Shown here piece by piece: positions 3,235 to 36,282 of a stretch of 37,514 bases of DNA (positions within the stretch are counted from its first letter, which is position 1; each line of letters opens with the position of its first letter). Origin of the DNA: a virus; the IMG/VR virus record IMGVR_UViG_3300031595_000041, positions 1 through 37,514 of that record. One strand, given 5' to 3'. Under the pieces are notes generated by a model, which was not told the DNA's origin, ran no database searches, and saw only the letters and a program-made list of their open reading frames with translations. The translations under genes and the position numbers were made by a program.

Positions 3235-3932
3235 TGTCAATTACTAATGTATCCAAAATTGCTATATATGCACAAGAGTTTGAGGGCTTTTGTAATGATA
3301 CATTAGTCAAAGTTGCTTACATTAAAAAAAGAGACGGTAAGTGGGTGATACTATCAGAAAAAGGTAAAGTATTGGGGACATATGATACAAAAGTAGAAGC
3401 CGTTGAGAGATTGCGTCAAATTGAGTATTTTAAGAACCATAAGAAAAAGAAAGCCTCAAAAGAAGACAGCTACTCAAGTATTATGAGAGATTTACGAAAA
3501 TCTTCAGATGAAGATACAATAAAATGTTTTCAGGAGGAATTTAAGAAAGCGTTTGATCAAGCAGTCATAGATGGCGATGAAGAACCAGAAAAAATTGCAT
3601 TAGAAAAAGCAAAAGAAAATATAAGAGATGAAAGTGAGTTGATGGAGAAAGCTGCGTCCGCAATTAACCTTGGTGATGCTGAAACTGCTGGAAAATATCT
3701 TGCTGATTTATTAAAGTTTGTTTTAAGGCGTATATCAGAAAACAAGCGACCGCGTGCTATTGAAGGGCTAAAAAGAAAAGTATATTATATAAATGAATAT
3801 CAAATTGCGGGAAAAAAAGTCCCAGCATCATCAGCAATTGGTCAGAGCATATCATTATTAAAAAACATATTATTAGAACACGAACCCCAATATATTAGAG
3901 GTGTTTTAAATTCAATAGTAAAGAATCTATGA
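3234..3932 (+). CDS. Unknown protein with 'GKW.. SEKGK.LGTYDT' module, 232 aa
   Basis: Residues about 25-65 carry the motif YIKKRDGKWVILSEKGK followed by LGTYDTKVEAVERLRQIEYF. I recall this as a small module in many phage proteins, probably a compact beta-beta-beta-alpha fold of unknown function. After a Lys-rich linker (HKKKKASK) the remainder is helical and charged. No catalytic motif is visible. The start overlaps the previous stop (TAATG) and the stop overlaps the phosphatase start (ATGA), so coupled translation is likely. A head or tail assembly role is suggested only by context. Confidence 0.7.
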   Translation: MSITNVSKIAIYAQEFEGFCNDTLVKVAYIKKRDGKWVILSEKGKVLGTYDTKVEAVERLRQIEYFKNHKKKKASKEDSYSSIMRDLRKSSDEDTIKCFQEEFKKAFDQAVIDGDEEPEKIALEKAKENIRDESELMEKAASAINLGDAETAGKYLADLLKFVLRRISENKRPRAIEGLKRKVYYINEYQIAGKKVPASSAIGQSISLLKNILLEHEPQYIRGVLNSIVKNL

Positions 3933-4696
3933 TATCTAATTTTAGAAAAGTAGATACTAATTTATATGCCGGTGCCGCCCCGTCAATAAAAGATGTGGCA
4001 TGGCTCAAACATAAATATGGAATAACTAAAATTGTTTCATTAGATGAAAATGCTGGGAAAAAAATTGATAGAGCAACCAAATTGCTTGGTATTAAGCATA
4101 TTATGCTACCAATAGATATTGGTAAGAAATCATCATTAATGAGATTCTTACATCATAATATAATAAAACTATTAGATGGTGAAAAAACTTATATCCATTG
4201 TCAATGGGGGCGCGACAGAACAGGTCTTGCAATTGCTATGTATCGTTGTGAACATGACGGTTGGTCTTGTGGTAAAGCATTGAAAGAAGCGAAAAAATAT
4301 GGGTTTGGCATTGGTGTTGATCCAAAAGTAGTTCATTTATATAAAAAATTAATAGCGCAGTCATGTGGGTGTAAAGATAAAGATATAAACTCGGCATATG
4401 ATATTGTTAGTAATGAAAGAGAATATCCAACAAACTATAATGATTACTCATTAGATGTTTGGCAACAAGGTAGCTGGAGCCCATATGAAGATTACCGTGT
4501 TCGAGAGTTTCCTTATGCTGATACATATCCTGATGCTGGCACTCAATATCCATCACGAATAGATCGTGGATTAGATGATAGCGATGCATTAAATGTAGAA
4601 AATATTGATGTCCCCCAGGTTGGTCAGTTCGACCAGAATACGCAGGGTATATCAGGTGCCGGTCCAAGTATGATTGGATCTGGCACTATTATTTAG
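3929..4696 (+). CDS. Dual-specificity-type protein phosphatase
   Basis: Residues 1-150 match the cysteine-based protein tyrosine/dual-specificity phosphatase fold. The P-loop signature HCxxGxxRTG is complete as HCQWGRDRTG, with nucleophile C91 and phosphate-binding R97. D63 in LPIDIGKK sits where the general acid is expected. Such enzymes remove phosphate from Tyr, Ser or Thr, and some act on RNA 5' ends or lipids, so the substrate is open. The C-terminal 110 residues are separate low-complexity sequence rich in Tyr, Asp and Pro, ending in a Gly/Ser-rich tail. The gene is translationally coupled to its upstream neighbour by ATGA overlap. An enzyme of this kind inside a portal-to-protease gene block is unusual. 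Confidence 0.85.
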   Translation: MISNFRKVDTNLYAGAAPSIKDVAWLKHKYGITKIVSLDENAGKKIDRATKLLGIKHIMLPIDIGKKSSLMRFLHHNIIKLLDGEKTYIHCQWGRDRTGLAIAMYRCEHDGWSCGKALKEAKKYGFGIGVDPKVVHLYKKLIAQSCGCKDKDINSAYDIVSNEREYPTNYNDYSLDVWQQGSWSPYEDYRVREFPYADTYPDAGTQYPSRIDRGLDDSDALNVENIDVPQVGQFDQNTQGISGAGPSMIGSGTII

Positions 4697-19531: not shown

Positions 19532-20548
19532 ATGTCTAATTCAATGTTCGATTCAAAAGGCGAAATTAACGCCTCTAACGTAAAAGAAGCTTTTGCACTT
19601 ATTGCAAAATTCGCACAGACAATGGAGTCAGGTGCACCAACAAATACTGGTCTAACATCACCATCAGTATCAGATAACAAACGTGATGAACTTATTTCTC
19701 GCGCGATTTTAACTAATGAAGGTAAACTAGCTCTTGCACAAGCAATGGCAAATCCAATTCGTAGGAATTTAGACTATCACGGAATTGCGCGACGCGCATT
19801 AGTCGTTGATCCTTTGCCACAAGGTGCACTACCAACATACGATCGAGATATCGATGTTGCAGCAGTCGTAATCTCATCCAACGGTACCGGTCCAGAATCA
19901 CGCGTATTCGGTGACCGCGTAACAGTTCCAGAATTCGAAGTCTATTCGAATCCAACTGTTCGTATCGCAGAAGTTAAACGACGCCGCTTCAACGTAATCG
20001 ACCGTGCTGTTCAAAAGGCACGTCAAGAAATCATGGCACAAGAAGACACGAACGTTTTCGCAGCCATCGATTCAGCAGCATCAGTTGAAAACACTGTAAT
20101 GGATATCAGCGATGCTGGTCTTCTAAAGCGTGACCTTCGTGAAATCAAAGTTCAAATTGATCGTTGGGACTTAGTAACAACCAAGTTCTTCATGAACATC
20201 AATGAGTTCAATGATATCCTCGGTTGGGGTTCCGGCGGTGGACAAGGCGTTGGCGGTGGTGAAGTTGACCCCGTTACACAACGTGAAATTCTACAAACAG
20301 GTCTATACGCACACATTTGGGGTGCAGACATTCTCGTGTCGAAGATTGTTCCTGCTGGTACAGTCTACGGCTGCAGCGACCCTGAGTTCGTGGGCGTAAT
20401 GCCAATCAGGCAGGATATCGAAGTTCTTCCAGCCGATGAACCAAAACAACTAAAGTTGGGCTGGGTTGTCAATGAAATAATAGGGATCGGCATTGTGAAT
20501 CCACGTGCCGTTGCAAAAGGCAATAAATCAGTAATAATCGGAGCCTAG
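19532..20548 (+). CDS. Major capsid protein (HK97-type fold)
   Basis: I chose the ATG at 19532 (MSNSMFDSKG), seven bases after GGAG. The longer frame from 19454 would add 26 residues from the untranslated leader. The 338-residue protein has the layout of major capsid proteins of large tailed phages. A helical N-terminal arm precedes GALPTYDRDIDVAAVV and an extended loop, then a long charged spine helix region (RRRFNVIDRAVQKARQEIMA). The C-terminal segment MPIRQDIEVLPADEPKQLKL is followed by GWVVNEIIGIGIVNP. Codon choice is strongly biased compared with neighbours, consistent with very high expression. A terminator follows 33 bases after the stop. Cleavage of the N-terminal arm by the 5919 protease is likely by analogy, but no site is proven here. 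Confidence 0.88.
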   Translation: MSNSMFDSKGEINASNVKEAFALIAKFAQTMESGAPTNTGLTSPSVSDNKRDELISRAILTNEGKLALAQAMANPIRRNLDYHGIARRALVVDPLPQGALPTYDRDIDVAAVVISSNGTGPESRVFGDRVTVPEFEVYSNPTVRIAEVKRRRFNVIDRAVQKARQEIMAQEDTNVFAAIDSAASVENTVMDISDAGLLKRDLREIKVQIDRWDLVTTKFFMNINEFNDILGWGSGGGQGVGGGEVDPVTQREILQTGLYAHIWGADILVSKIVPAGTVYGCSDPEFVGVMPIRQDIEVLPADEPKQLKLGWVVNEIIGIGIVNPRAVAKGNKSVIIGA

Positions 20549-20691: not shown

Positions 20692-20713
20692 GTAAGGAGA
20701 AATGGAGATCGTC

Positions 20714-21763
20714 ATGGCAAAAAATCAGGGCAAACTGACAGGAAAAGAAGATCAAATAATCAAAGATTATATCTCAGGTGATGGATCAGAAATTCTTGCA
20801 CAAAGATACGGAGTAAGTGGAAGCTCGATTCTCAAATTTTTGAAGAAGCATAATGTTCCAATTCGTCCACGTAAAATCACACCAAAAGATATGAAAGAGC
20901 GTTGTATTGAAAGATATAAATCAGGTCTCTCATTAGAAGCCTCGGGAGAGCCAGACGGATTAAGTGCAGCTGCCGTTCTCATGTACATGGAAGAGTATAA
21001 TGTTCCAACACGAAGTGCCGAAGAAGCACATAGAAAATATCCTATCAATGAAGATTTTTTTGACAAAATAGATACCGAGGAGAAGGCTTATTTTCTTGGC
21101 TTCCTATATGCTGATGGATGTAATCAGATGGCTAATTATTGGGCAACTGTAATATCATTAGATGTTATTGATGTTGATATTTTATACCGTTTTTCGAAGA
21201 TGATATACAAAGATGAAAATACCGCGAAAGAACAGATAAAATTTAGCAATAGGGAACACGAAGGTAAAAGAATAGAAGCTCGTCTATCAATCAATAGTAA
21301 ATATATATGCCAGCAAATGCAAAAATTAGGCTGCGTATCACGAAAGACATTCATATTAGAATATCCTAAATGGATGCCAGAACATCTACATCGTCATTTT
21401 ATTCGCGGATATTTTGATGGTGATGGAACTATCAACAATGAAACTAAAACCCTCTCTGGATGTAAGATTGTGTCAACTCTACAGTTTTTGGAAGGATTGA
21501 AAAAGGTTGTTGGAATAGATTCTAGTATTGGTAAACACGACCCAACTAATAATAAAAATACCTATCTTTTATATTATTCTGGTAATCGAAATCAATGGTT
21601 ATTCCTACACTGGATCTATTCAGGATCTACAATATATCTTCAACGCAAGTACGATGCCTACATGCGTTTCGCAGAAAAGATGCGCGTAATAGACGAAAAA
21701 ACATCTGCCGGAACACAAGGATATAAAAAATCTAATCTACTAAAAACATCATCACTAAAATAA
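20714..21763 (+). CDS. LAGLIDADG homing endonuclease, free-standing
   Basis: Two LAGLIDADG motifs are present: LGFLYADGC (about 128-136) and FIRGYFDGDGTI (about 229-240), each with its acidic catalytic Asp. This makes a single-chain double-motif enzyme that cuts long DNA targets and copies its gene by repair. The N-terminus has two helix-turn-helix-like units with the same ending (KKHNVPIRPRK and EEYNVPTRSAEE). They are probably DNA-binding. I prefer the ATG at 20714, six bases after GGAG. The ATG at 20702 is only two bases from the upstream AGGAG. It lies just downstream of the capsid gene, has its own promoter and is not inside an intron. Confidence 0.88.
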   Translation: MAKNQGKLTGKEDQIIKDYISGDGSEILAQRYGVSGSSILKFLKKHNVPIRPRKITPKDMKERCIERYKSGLSLEASGEPDGLSAAAVLMYMEEYNVPTRSAEEAHRKYPINEDFFDKIDTEEKAYFLGFLYADGCNQMANYWATVISLDVIDVDILYRFSKMIYKDENTAKEQIKFSNREHEGKRIEARLSINSKYICQQMQKLGCVSRKTFILEYPKWMPEHLHRHFIRGYFDGDGTINNETKTLSGCKIVSTLQFLEGLKKVVGIDSSIGKHDPTNNKNTYLLYYSGNRNQWLFLHWIYSGSTIYLQRKYDAYMRFAEKMRVIDEKTSAGTQGYKKSNLLKTSSLK

Positions 21764-33366: not shown

Positions 33367-34224
33367 ATGCGAGCATTAGTACATAGCGGGGGCGGAAGTG
33401 CTGGTTCTTGGGGTGCAGGAGTTCTGAAATATCTTATGGAAGATCTTGGAAAAACTTATGATATTTTTGCAGGCGTTAGCGTTGGTGCGCTAAATACTTC
33501 TTGGTTAGCGCAGTACGCGCCAACTGATCAAAAGCTAGGGTATCAGGCTCTTTATAATTTATGGTACAATATTCAAGATTCAACAGTAAAGAAAAATTGG
33601 TGTCCATTCAGAGAAGCATCTGCAATTTGGAAAGATAGTGTGTACAATAGTCAGCCTCTAATAGATTTAGTTCATAGTCAGGTTAATCTTGAAAAAATAC
33701 GCTCTTCTGGTAATAAGATTGCTGTTAGTGCTGTACAGGCTGCAACCGGAAAATATGTTACATTTACGCAAAATGATGATTGTTTTTTAGATGGCGTTCT
33801 AGCAAGTAGTGCATTTCCTGCTGCGTTATGTCCAATAACTATTGATGGGTATAAATATGTGGATGGCGGAGCACGACATTCATTACCACTAAATGAAGCC
33901 ATTCAGTTGGGAGCAACAGATTTAGATGTTATTATATGTGGACCCAAAATGCCAACAAATCCATTTGATGATGCTAACGCACTCACATTAGGTATACGAT
34001 CTTTTGATTACGCAACAAGTCAAATGGTAGAATCAGATCTAAAAATAGCGTATCTATATAATAAATTAGTATCTGCCGGGCTTGCGCCAGGTAAAAGGAT
34101 GCTTAATATAAAAGTTATACGCCCGCGAGTAGATCTTGCTGGTAGCACATTAACATTTGATAACCCTACAATGCGGGCTCATTTGGTGCAAGGGTACGAA
34201 GATGCAAAAAATCAGTATATGTAA
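33367..34224 (+). CDS. Patatin-like phospholipase 1
   Basis: The whole 285-residue chain fits a patatin-like (PNPLA-type) acyl hydrolase, which cleaves acyl chains from lipids with a Ser/Asp dyad. The oxyanion-hole motif is SGGGSAGSWGAG (7-18). The nucleophile elbow is GVSVG (G36-G40, Ser38). The catalytic Asp lies in the DGG motif YVDGGARHSLP (D166). No signal peptide or membrane segment is visible. AGGAG precedes the ATG. The gene stands after the fibre cluster and is closely related to 35077, with catalytic residues at the same numbers. Possible roles are virion-carried lipase, membrane disruption at lysis, or attack on host defence or signalling lipids. Confidence 0.88.
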   Translation: MRALVHSGGGSAGSWGAGVLKYLMEDLGKTYDIFAGVSVGALNTSWLAQYAPTDQKLGYQALYNLWYNIQDSTVKKNWCPFREASAIWKDSVYNSQPLIDLVHSQVNLEKIRSSGNKIAVSAVQAATGKYVTFTQNDDCFLDGVLASSAFPAALCPITIDGYKYVDGGARHSLPLNEAIQLGATDLDVIICGPKMPTNPFDDANALTLGIRSFDYATSQMVESDLKIAYLYNKLVSAGLAPGKRMLNIKVIRPRVDLAGSTLTFDNPTMRAHLVQGYEDAKNQYM

Positions 34225-34258
34225 TTCCATACAGTGATATATAGTTGTTAGGTGAAGT

Positions 34259-35050
34259 ATGGCAAAAACACGAGTAAATATATTATATCTATTAACAAAT
34301 ATAGTAAATGGTAAAATTTATATTGGGCAGACATGGCAGTCTCTAAAAAGACGATTCCATGGTGGTGCGGGATATAAACGTTGTGTACATCTGAATCATG
34401 CTATAGAAAAATACGGTAAAGATAATTTTTATTATACAAATTTAGATTTTGCTTTTACACAAGCACAAGCTAATATATTGGAAGATTTTTATATTGACAA
34501 ATATGATAGTACTAATCCAGATATAGGATATAATATAAAAAAGGGCGGTACCCACGGTAGTCATTCTGATGAAACAAAGAAAAAACTATCAGACGCAAAT
34601 AAAGGTAAAAAGCAATCAGAAGAGACAAAAGCATTAAGATCTAAAATAATGATGGGTAATAAACATGGAGTTGGTAATAAAAATCATTCGGGACATAAAC
34701 ACTCAGATGAATCAAAAAAGAAAATGTCAGATTCATTGATGGGTCGGGAGGCATGGAATAAAGGAATACCGATGTCAGAAGAATCAAAAGTTATTTTGTC
34801 TAATTCGTTAAAAGGCAGAGAAGTTTGGAACAAAGGCAAGCCTGGTCCTAAGGGAGAGGATCATCCTGGATGCAAATTAAATAATGAAATGGTATTAGAA
34901 ATTAGAAAAGATTTTGCAAATGTATCTGCTAATTTTGTTAGAGGTGATGGACAAAAACAAAATTTTTGTAAAGAAATTGCTAAAAAACTTGGAATGCATT
35001 ATATGATAATAGCAAGAGTTATTGATAGAAAAACTTGGACGCACATATAA
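34259..35050 (+). CDS. GIY-YIG homing endonuclease with NUMOD3 repeats
   Basis: Residues about 6-95 form a GIY-YIG nuclease domain. The first motif is degenerate (ILYLLTN), while KIYIGQT (19-25), R31 in SLKRRF and E75 in ILEDFYID are retained. Residues about 101-200 hold four NUMOD3-like repeats (SDETKKKLSDANKG, SEETKALRSKIMMG, SDESKKKMSDSLMG and SEESKVILSNSLKG), known DNA-binding modules of homing endonucleases. The C-terminus is helix-turn-helix-like (CKEIAKKLGMHYMIIARVI). AGGTGAAG precedes the start. The gene is free-standing and sits exactly between the two patatin genes, so it probably entered there or moved with one of them. Homing activity is inferred. Confidence 0.88.
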   Translation: MAKTRVNILYLLTNIVNGKIYIGQTWQSLKRRFHGGAGYKRCVHLNHAIEKYGKDNFYYTNLDFAFTQAQANILEDFYIDKYDSTNPDIGYNIKKGGTHGSHSDETKKKLSDANKGKKQSEETKALRSKIMMGNKHGVGNKNHSGHKHSDESKKKMSDSLMGREAWNKGIPMSEESKVILSNSLKGREVWNKGKPGPKGEDHPGCKLNNEMVLEIRKDFANVSANFVRGDGQKQNFCKEIAKKLGMHYMIIARVIDRKTWTHI

Positions 35051-35076
35051 TACTCCGAATAAATAAGCATTAATGT

Positions 35077-35940
35077 ATGCGTGCATTGATACTCGGTGGC
35101 GGCGGAAGCAAGGGAAGCTGGGCCGTCGGCGTATTGCGTCATTTACTAGGTGATCTAGAAAAAAAATATGACCTCGTGGTCGGCGTGAGCTCAGGTGCTA
35201 TCAATGCTTCATTCTTAAGTCAATATCCTCTCGGACAAGAAAAACTCGCTATCAATACTCTTTCTGATATGTGGCTATCACTAAACAATAGTATAATATA
35301 TAAAAAATGGAAGCCGTTTGGAAAACTGCATATTGCATGGAAGTTGGGGTTTTTTGATAGTACTCCTATGAAGTTGCTATTGCAAAATAGTATATCAGTA
35401 CAAAAAATACGCGATGCTAATAGACATGTTATTGTTGGGGCAGTCTCCTTCACAACCGGTAAATACAGTAATTTTGATCAATCATCAGATGATTTTATTA
35501 GTGCTGTTGGTGCCAGCGCGTCTTTTCCAATTCTTTTTGAGCCGGTAAAAATTGGAGATCAATTATGGGGAGATGGTGGTATAAAATCAATATCACCAAT
35601 TCATACGGCTATTGATTTTGGTGCAACTGAAATAGATGCCATTGTAACATCACCAGAAACTCGTGATAAAAAGTTTATGCTTAAGCCAAATATAATAGAT
35701 ATATTAAAAAGATCATTTGATTTATATACAGAAAAGATCATGTCTAATGATATTGAAAAAGCATTAATATATAATCAATTAGCTAAATCAGGATTAACTA
35801 ATAAGAAAGAAATAAAACTAAATATCATTCGTCCAAAGTTTAATCTAATTGAAGATTTATTAGATTTCTCGCCATCTAAAATCAAAACTATGATGGATAT
35901 TGGATATCGCGATGCCTTGTCTGCTAATTTTATATTATAA
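35077..35940 (+). CDS. Patatin-like phospholipase 2
   Basis: Paralogue of the 33367 product with the same layout. The oxyanion-hole motif is GGGGSKGSW (7-15), the nucleophile elbow is GVSSG (Ser38), and the catalytic Asp lies in GDGGIKSISP (D166). Length (287) and motif positions match closely. The pair most likely arose by duplication, or by acquisition from two related phages. No clear ribosome binding site is visible before the ATG; TAAGCATTAATGT lies there, and an out-of-frame ATG begins at 35073. The first 130 bases are notably richer in G and C than the rest of the gene. The gene follows the endonuclease by 26 bases, and the tail gene cluster resumes after it. Confidence 0.85.
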   Translation: MRALILGGGGSKGSWAVGVLRHLLGDLEKKYDLVVGVSSGAINASFLSQYPLGQEKLAINTLSDMWLSLNNSIIYKKWKPFGKLHIAWKLGFFDSTPMKLLLQNSISVQKIRDANRHVIVGAVSFTTGKYSNFDQSSDDFISAVGASASFPILFEPVKIGDQLWGDGGIKSISPIHTAIDFGATEIDAIVTSPETRDKKFMLKPNIIDILKRSFDLYTEKIMSNDIEKALIYNQLAKSGLTNKKEIKLNIIRPKFNLIEDLLDFSPSKIKTMMDIGYRDALSANFIL

Positions 35941-35955
35941 AGTTAGGGAGTTATT

Positions 35956-36282
35956 ATGGCTAATGGTATTGGTATGGGCGCAATAACTTATGGATTTGAC
36001 CATAATTTTTTCCAAAAGATTTCTGTTGTAGCAACAAGTTTCAATAACAATGCTGATTTGTTCATCCCATTTGTGACGCAAGGCATTATGATGTTGAATT
36101 TAGGTACCGGCGTAGTTGAGATTTCTCTAAATGGTCAGACTGTACATATGGAGTTGAATAGCGCTAATGCATCGGCAGGGTTAACATTTGACAATCGAGT
36201 CGTTAGTAAAATGTGGTTTCGAGTTCAATCCGGTAGTTCTGGACCAATTGTCGTGTCGGTAAACGCTTGGGATCGTCAGTAA
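35956..36282 (+). CDS. Small structural protein, 108 aa
   Basis: A compact beta-sandwich-like protein without Cys. Alternating strands (QKISVVATSF, DLFIPFVTQGIMMLNL, VVEISLNGQTVHMEL, MWFRVQSGSSGPIVVSVNAW) resemble single-domain decoration or fibre-knob proteins. TTAGGGAG precedes the ATG at 35956. It ends seven bases before the next gene. A decoration, fibre-base or tail-associated subunit is likely by size and context. No named family is recognised. Confidence 0.65.
   Translation: MANGIGMGAITYGFDHNFFQKISVVATSFNNNADLFIPFVTQGIMMLNLGTGVVEISLNGQTVHMELNSANASAGLTFDNRVVSKMWFRVQSGSSGPIVVSVNAWDRQ

Follow-up and report, generated by a model that had tools for sequence, protein, structure and literature searches.

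Patatin-like phospholipases with a conserved place among the structural genes of uncultured jumbo phages: an old two-line family with a possible virion-associated role

The 37,514-nt virus record IMGVR_UViG_3300031595_000041 (IMG/VR), analysed here over positions 1-37,514 and called the window in what follows, carries two genes for patatin-like proteins, patA and patB, with a homing endonuclease gene between them (Table 1). The question raised by this locus is what role a pair of predicted lipid-cutting enzymes would have among the genes that build a phage particle. To our knowledge, lipid-cutting enzymes are no recognised component of tailed-phage particles; very large phages have a host envelope to cross and a large genome to move. 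Our search for literature on phage-encoded phospholipases found almost none, but patatins have already been reported in phages (phage WO and Mar_Mega_1) and the kind is therefore known. Wolbachia phage WO, like the window, has a patatin gene in a structural module: gp45 lies at the end of the tail module and, in the part of the report available to us, has a suggested role in entry or exit (PMC3173496). WO differs in being a temperate phage of an intracellular bacterium, and the same part of that report describes no tandem pair; no WO record was matched by the window patatins in tblastn searches at E 0.01. The marine megaphage Mar_Mega_1 resembles our case in that its very large genome carries a patatin; the accessible sections of its description class this patatin-like phospholipase as an auxiliary metabolic gene, one that might increase the virulence of the host, call it the first in a phage, and describe neither structural synteny nor a pair (PMC9723777). 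A distant relative in an isolated phage, Rm378p022 of Rhodothermus phage RM378, is about 25% identical and differs in its place, next to a DNA polymerase gene rather than in a fibre cluster.

Table 1. Genes of the patatin locus and structural landmarks of the window.
Feature	Position	Strand	Basis
patA, patatin-like protein, 285 aa; Ser38, Asp166; loop GGGSAG	33367..34224	+	Pfam 2.2e-25
GIY-YIG/NUMOD3 free-standing homing endonuclease, 263 aa, between patA and patB	34259..35050	+	Pfam, phrog_314
patB, patatin-like protein, 287 aa; Ser38, Asp166; loop GGGSKG	35077..35940	+	Pfam 1.8e-30
c3, conserved small protein, ~110 aa, directly 3' of patatin	35956..36282	+	family n=29 members
Fibre-like protein 5' of patA, 326 aa	32314..33294	+	synteny with L003 and L004
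Large repetitive fibre-like protein (cluster c1), 1403 aa	27627..31838	+	neighbour clustering
Major capsid protein, lineage marker	19532..20548	+	phrog_2522 1e-77

The arrangement described in an earlier note on this DNA, two patatins flanking a GIY-YIG homing endonuclease, is borne out by three open reading frames on the same strand, each with its Pfam match. PatA and PatB score 90.4 and 107 bits, respectively, against the Pfam Patatin profile (PF01734, cut-off 27.7), with the profile covered from 1 to 191 of 191, and their alignment places Ser38 (GxSxG) and Asp166 (DGG) at identical positions, as the earlier note had read them. In the family alignment, Ser38 is kept in 88 of 88 alignable rows and Asp166 in 89 of 89. 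Structure prediction likewise gave the expected patatin fold: the AlphaFold models are confident (pLDDT 92.8 for PatA and 92.3 for PatB), and their best matches are known patatins, including PlpD, plant patatin, CapE and CapV. PlpD is the top Foldseek match of the PatA model (E 1.4e-14), and the PatB model has Z scores of 26.7 with CapE, 26.6 with patatin and 26.5 with PlpD. This last protein, from Pseudomonas aeruginosa (PlpD; 5fya, 5fqu), shares the core fold and is the closest solved relative by profile (5.9e-23); it differs in having an outer-membrane domain of its own, through which it is secreted, whereas the phage proteins are single patatin domains. By 19-residue means, neither PatA nor PatB contains a region hydrophobic enough for a typical signal peptide or membrane segment; the highest values, 1.54 and 1.23, lie below the typical transmembrane value and agree with the previously noted lack of a signal peptide. 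Among the window genes and their closest relatives (L003 and L004), dN/dS ratios are 0.08-0.09 for patB and 0.09-0.25 for patA, indicating that selection on both is purifying. Bacterial remnants or dead copies are excluded by the invariant Ser and Asp in the relatives and by purifying selection in the closest of them. These observations support the prediction that the family consists of lipid acyl hydrolases of the phospholipase A/lysophospholipase type.

The oxyanion loop is where the two proteins part. Both copies had been thought to keep the complete Gly-rich loop, which is true of PatB (GGGSKG, with a basic residue), but in PatA (GGGSAG) only the glycines are kept and the basic residue has given way to Ala. 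Lys or Arg stands at this position in 78 of the 89 aligned rows, and the basic residue is missing, besides PatA, from 12 rows at most. The replacement is seen in PatA of the window, L003 and L004; PatA of L014, L015 and L023 retains Lys. We infer that the position is equivalent to Arg200 of cytosolic PLA2, whose reported role is to stabilise the phosphate of the substrate (PMC5539244). To call both copies catalytically complete is therefore an overstatement, and PatA, having lost this basic residue, may differ in activity or in the substrate it takes.

Scans of viral contigs with each protein alone returned zero relatives for PatA and two for PatB, and a joint alignment search recovered 80 loci; the joint pattern requires an MRALVLSGG-type start and biases the sample to such an N-terminus, a bias that touches neither Ser38, Asp166 nor gene order. 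In the tree of these 80 rows, PatA falls in a clade of six and PatB in a clade of 19, each with support of 100/99, values that are rough since the bootstrap was not fully settled. Together with the 36% identity between PatA and PatB, these old, separate and well-supported clades rule out a recent duplication, and PatA and PatB appear from the tree to be two ancient branches of a patatin family that belongs to phages. The pair occurs in five contigs (the window, L003, L004, L015 and L023), always with A before B, and pair-carrying records include jumbo sizes of 406 and 481 kb. Two of these contigs hold close relatives of the window genes: L003 (133-kb record), with the order patA, a different GIY-YIG endonuclease, patB, and L004 (406-kb record), where patA adjoins patB with no endonuclease and the whole record holds just these two patatins. 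The flanking fibre-like genes and c3 are common to all three. Synteny in related phages thus upholds the order of the pair and does not extend to the endonuclease, which is absent or replaced. In the window, PatB shares about 90% identity with its relatives and PatA only 67%; the identity of PatA to its L004 counterpart is uneven, with one stretch of 20/20 identical residues among blocks of 10-17, and looks like mosaic descent. Either line is also found singly, PatA in L014, whose 181-kb record has one patatin, and PatB as the sole patatin in many records, which makes an obligate form of the heterodimer once suggested for the pair unlikely. A match labelled "Acinetobacter phage MD-2021a" (L010, CAKLQH020000002.1) was dropped for its bacterial housekeeping neighbours secA, fadJ and gcd; it is probably a bacterial chromosome mislabelled as phage. 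Long patatin ORFs in L048, L075 and L086 were rejected as fusions, their extra parts looking like out-of-frame or artefactual extensions, and none of the patatins in the family loci proved to be joined to a structural domain.

The endonuclease between the copies matches NUMOD3 (4e-18) and GIY-YIG (3e-6) in Pfam and phrog_314 (2e-35). It resembles the free-standing GIY-YIG endonucleases of phages (phrog_314, T4 Seg type) in combining GIY-YIG with NUMOD3 and in lying between conserved genes, and differs from them in that such genes are here placed repeatedly at the patatin start codon. Its site is empty in the close relative L004, and the L003 endonuclease at the same place is only 32% identical to that of the window, which argues for separate insertion of a mobile gene. 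A reading of the endonuclease and the patatins as one unit finds no support; with the former missing or swapped in the closest relatives, it is a later-arriving mobile element with no part in the enzymatic function of the patatins. The leader 5' of the L003 endonuclease matches the L004 leader 5' of patB, and the stop codon of this endonuclease overlaps the patB start codon (TAATG). The same overlap with a patatin occurs in L018, L021, L029 and L071, some of them from other patatin clades, and the endonucleases at patatin starts are just 27-32% identical to that of the window. There are 14 distinct endonucleases in the family loci, seven of them directly 5' of a patatin, a placement to which no probability is attached because sampling was centred on patatins. 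It can be inferred that the patatin gene start is a recurrent docking site for homing endonucleases, perhaps owing to conserved sequence there. A second homing endonuclease of the window's structural region, of LAGLIDADG type (PF14528 4e-9, phrog_4645), lies at 20702-21763, directly 3' of the major capsid gene.

Since homing endonucleases adjoin patatin genes in several contigs, the patatins might be accidental cargo, host genes that were picked up and are carried along by the endonuclease. We regard this as extremely improbable and largely refuted by the pairs without an endonuclease in L004, L015 and L023, by the deep phage clades, fixed place and purifying selection of the patatins, and by the nature of the lone close bacterial-labelled match. 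This match, L177 (JAAUSR010000190.1), is 56% identical, the next one 34%; it is a 3-kb contig in a Thioploca MAG that carries a patatin, c3 and an HNH gene, and is a fragment from the same phage group, probably placed there by a binning error. Thioploca was accordingly discarded as a clue to the host.

Neighbouring genes were clustered over all loci and counted on 72 distinct contigs. A fibre-type cluster lies at most three genes 5' of the patatin in 36/72 contigs, the three 5' genes all share the strand of the patatin in 62/72, c3 lies at most three genes 3' in 23/72, and neck/sheath-type genes (phrog_211, phrog_23) lie at most seven genes 3' in 7/72. The earlier placement of the window's patatins inside a fibre region holds as far as composition and clustering with relatives' genes go, these being the source of the fibre identity of their neighbours; no family match in Pfam or PHROGs names any of these neighbours as a fibre, the 326-aa protein having neither a Pfam nor a PHROG match and the 1403-aa protein no Pfam match. 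Searches with c3 matched nothing in the PDB and nothing convincing in PHROGs. A relationship of c8, as a neck protein, to c24 found no support (hhalign probability 1.9), and a search for a T4-like late promoter motif 5' of the genes found nothing systematic.

With the major capsid protein as lineage marker, 31 records were searched for patatins, and ten patatin-negative ones with less than 12 kb 3' of the capsid gene were left out as uninformative. Sixteen of the 21 informative relatives have a patatin at a distance of 3-22 kb from the capsid gene (on the opposite strand in one), in keeping with the proposed position inside a phage structural cluster, and this place is constant across patatins just ~35% identical. 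The other five gave no patatin match. The capsid protein of the window is 54% identical to gp27 of Bacillus phage G, and no patatin was matched in phage G, Rctr197k, LR745208, Tunturi_5 or PaBG. The patatin-negative relatives and these five genomes indicate that a patatin is not required by every such phage; judged from these genomes, the gene is common and fixed in place, yet dispensable across the group.

Several other genes were observed in the surroundings. Among the head genes of the window is one, at 3929-4696, for a protein that resembles tyrosine/dual-specificity phosphatases (PF03162 9e-7) and contains the motif HCQWGRDRTG; a protein with a transglycosylase (SLT) or tail-lysozyme domain that resembles baseplate hub families is encoded at 1769-2833. 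The stretch about 2-3 kb 3' of the patatin in L003, L004 and relatives repeatedly encodes c7, a cold-shock-domain protein, and c10, a small HNH protein. A glycosyltransferase-containing cluster, c12, lies directly 3' of the patatin in L030, L036 and L053, which suggests modification of fibres or of host surface sugars. The c15 family, found a few kb 3' of the patatin in 14 loci (L015:11797-12081 and L023:12100-12411, both on the minus strand, and relatives), consists of small opposite-strand proteins that combine a coiled coil with a hydrophobic segment at a terminus and could, judged by eye, be holin-like.

The explanation that we tentatively prefer, as a possibility short of a firm expectation, is that the patatins are late lipolytic enzymes associated with the virion of jumbo phages. 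PatA and PatB would be made late, together with fibre and tail proteins, would exit with the particle, held in its fibre, neck or tail region, and at entry would cleave acyl chains off host membrane lipids, with Ser38 as the presumed nucleophile and Asp166 as its base. PatB would be the ordinary enzyme of the pair, and the PatA subgroup that evolves faster and lacks a basic residue in its loop has probably changed its activity or its substrate. We prefer packaging since patatins only ~35% identical still keep a fixed position among structural genes, and since phage WO has a patatin in its tail module. We also count in its favour the proximity to the capsid gene, the invariant Ser38 and Asp166, the fold and the lack of a signal-peptide-like stretch, and against it that half of the contigs have no recognised fibre cluster beside the patatin, that no structural-domain fusion was found and that some relatives miss the gene. 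A neighbourhood of genes is no demonstration of packaging, and a cytosolic enzyme without a signal peptide suits lysis from within about as well.

It is indeed conceivable, if somewhat unlikely, that the patatins remain inside the infected cell and, at a late stage, cleave phospholipids of the inner membrane from its cytoplasmic face, aiding holin and endolysin in breaking the envelope in the manner of the membrane-degrading CapV effector or, as a lipolytic lysis aid, of mycobacteriophage LysB. CapV and ExoU, which have the fold in common with PatA and PatB, act inside cells. The missing signal-peptide-like or membrane segment and the c15 protein also fit such a lysis helper; however, no recognised endolysin or holin adjoins the patatin, the transglycosylase of the window lies 30 kb off and resembles a tail lysozyme or hub, and a lipase acting on the inner membrane without control would risk lysing the cell too soon, with no regulator recognised. 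On sequence evidence, a virion-associated role seems more likely than a lysis helper.

An enzyme of lipid metabolism or of an infection compartment, which would remodel or recycle host lipids (releasing fatty acids for energy, changing membranes or opening infection vesicles) with neither packaging nor lysis, we consider unlikely. In giant viruses and other very large phages, patatins usually count as metabolic genes in the available portions of two reports (PMC9723777, PMC9469726), and presence in many but not all relatives would suit such a role; yet the gene sits among structural, not metabolic, genes even where patatins are only ~35% identical.

The resemblance of the fold to CapV and CapE, and the matches of 64/64 members scanned to PADLOC phospholipase effector models, might instead point to counter-defence, in which the patatins would bind a defence signal or disturb CBASS-type phospholipase effectors, for instance as decoys. 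Such a function appears very improbable, as PADLOC-type matches are what any patatin gives and as a pure decoy would have no need of the strictly kept catalytic residues. CapV and CapE (8zr9, 9iom) share the fold, with Z of 24-27 with PatB, and differ in being cyclic-nucleotide-activated proteins of bacterial defence. PatB reaches 47.8 bits against the NCBIfam CBASS_lipase cut-off of 200, far under that of CapV, and no SMODS-type CD-NTase (PF18144) was matched in eight large relatives, so that identity as a CBASS effector was rejected and the link to CapV drawn in the earlier note finds no support.

As far as the literature shows, what is new here is the conserved place of a patatin among the structural genes of a jumbo-phage lineage, together with the two ancient lines of the family, the changed oxyanion loop of PatA and the proposed docking site for endonucleases. 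PHROGs has no matching family for 62 of the 64 patatin members scanned, so that standard phage annotation misses the family or labels it metabolic. That a widespread lineage of uncultured jumbo phages packs a phospholipase into its particle, and that one branch carries PatB with a loop-altered PatA for different lipids at entry, is as a whole a doubtful proposition that we put forward as rather unlikely in its full form. Our analysis nevertheless places one or two patatins, predicted to cut membrane lipids, among the particle-building genes of uncultured giant phages, and the conserved catalytic residues and structural place of these proteins in many uncultured jumbo phages suggest that such phages may use a lipolytic step in entry or exit.
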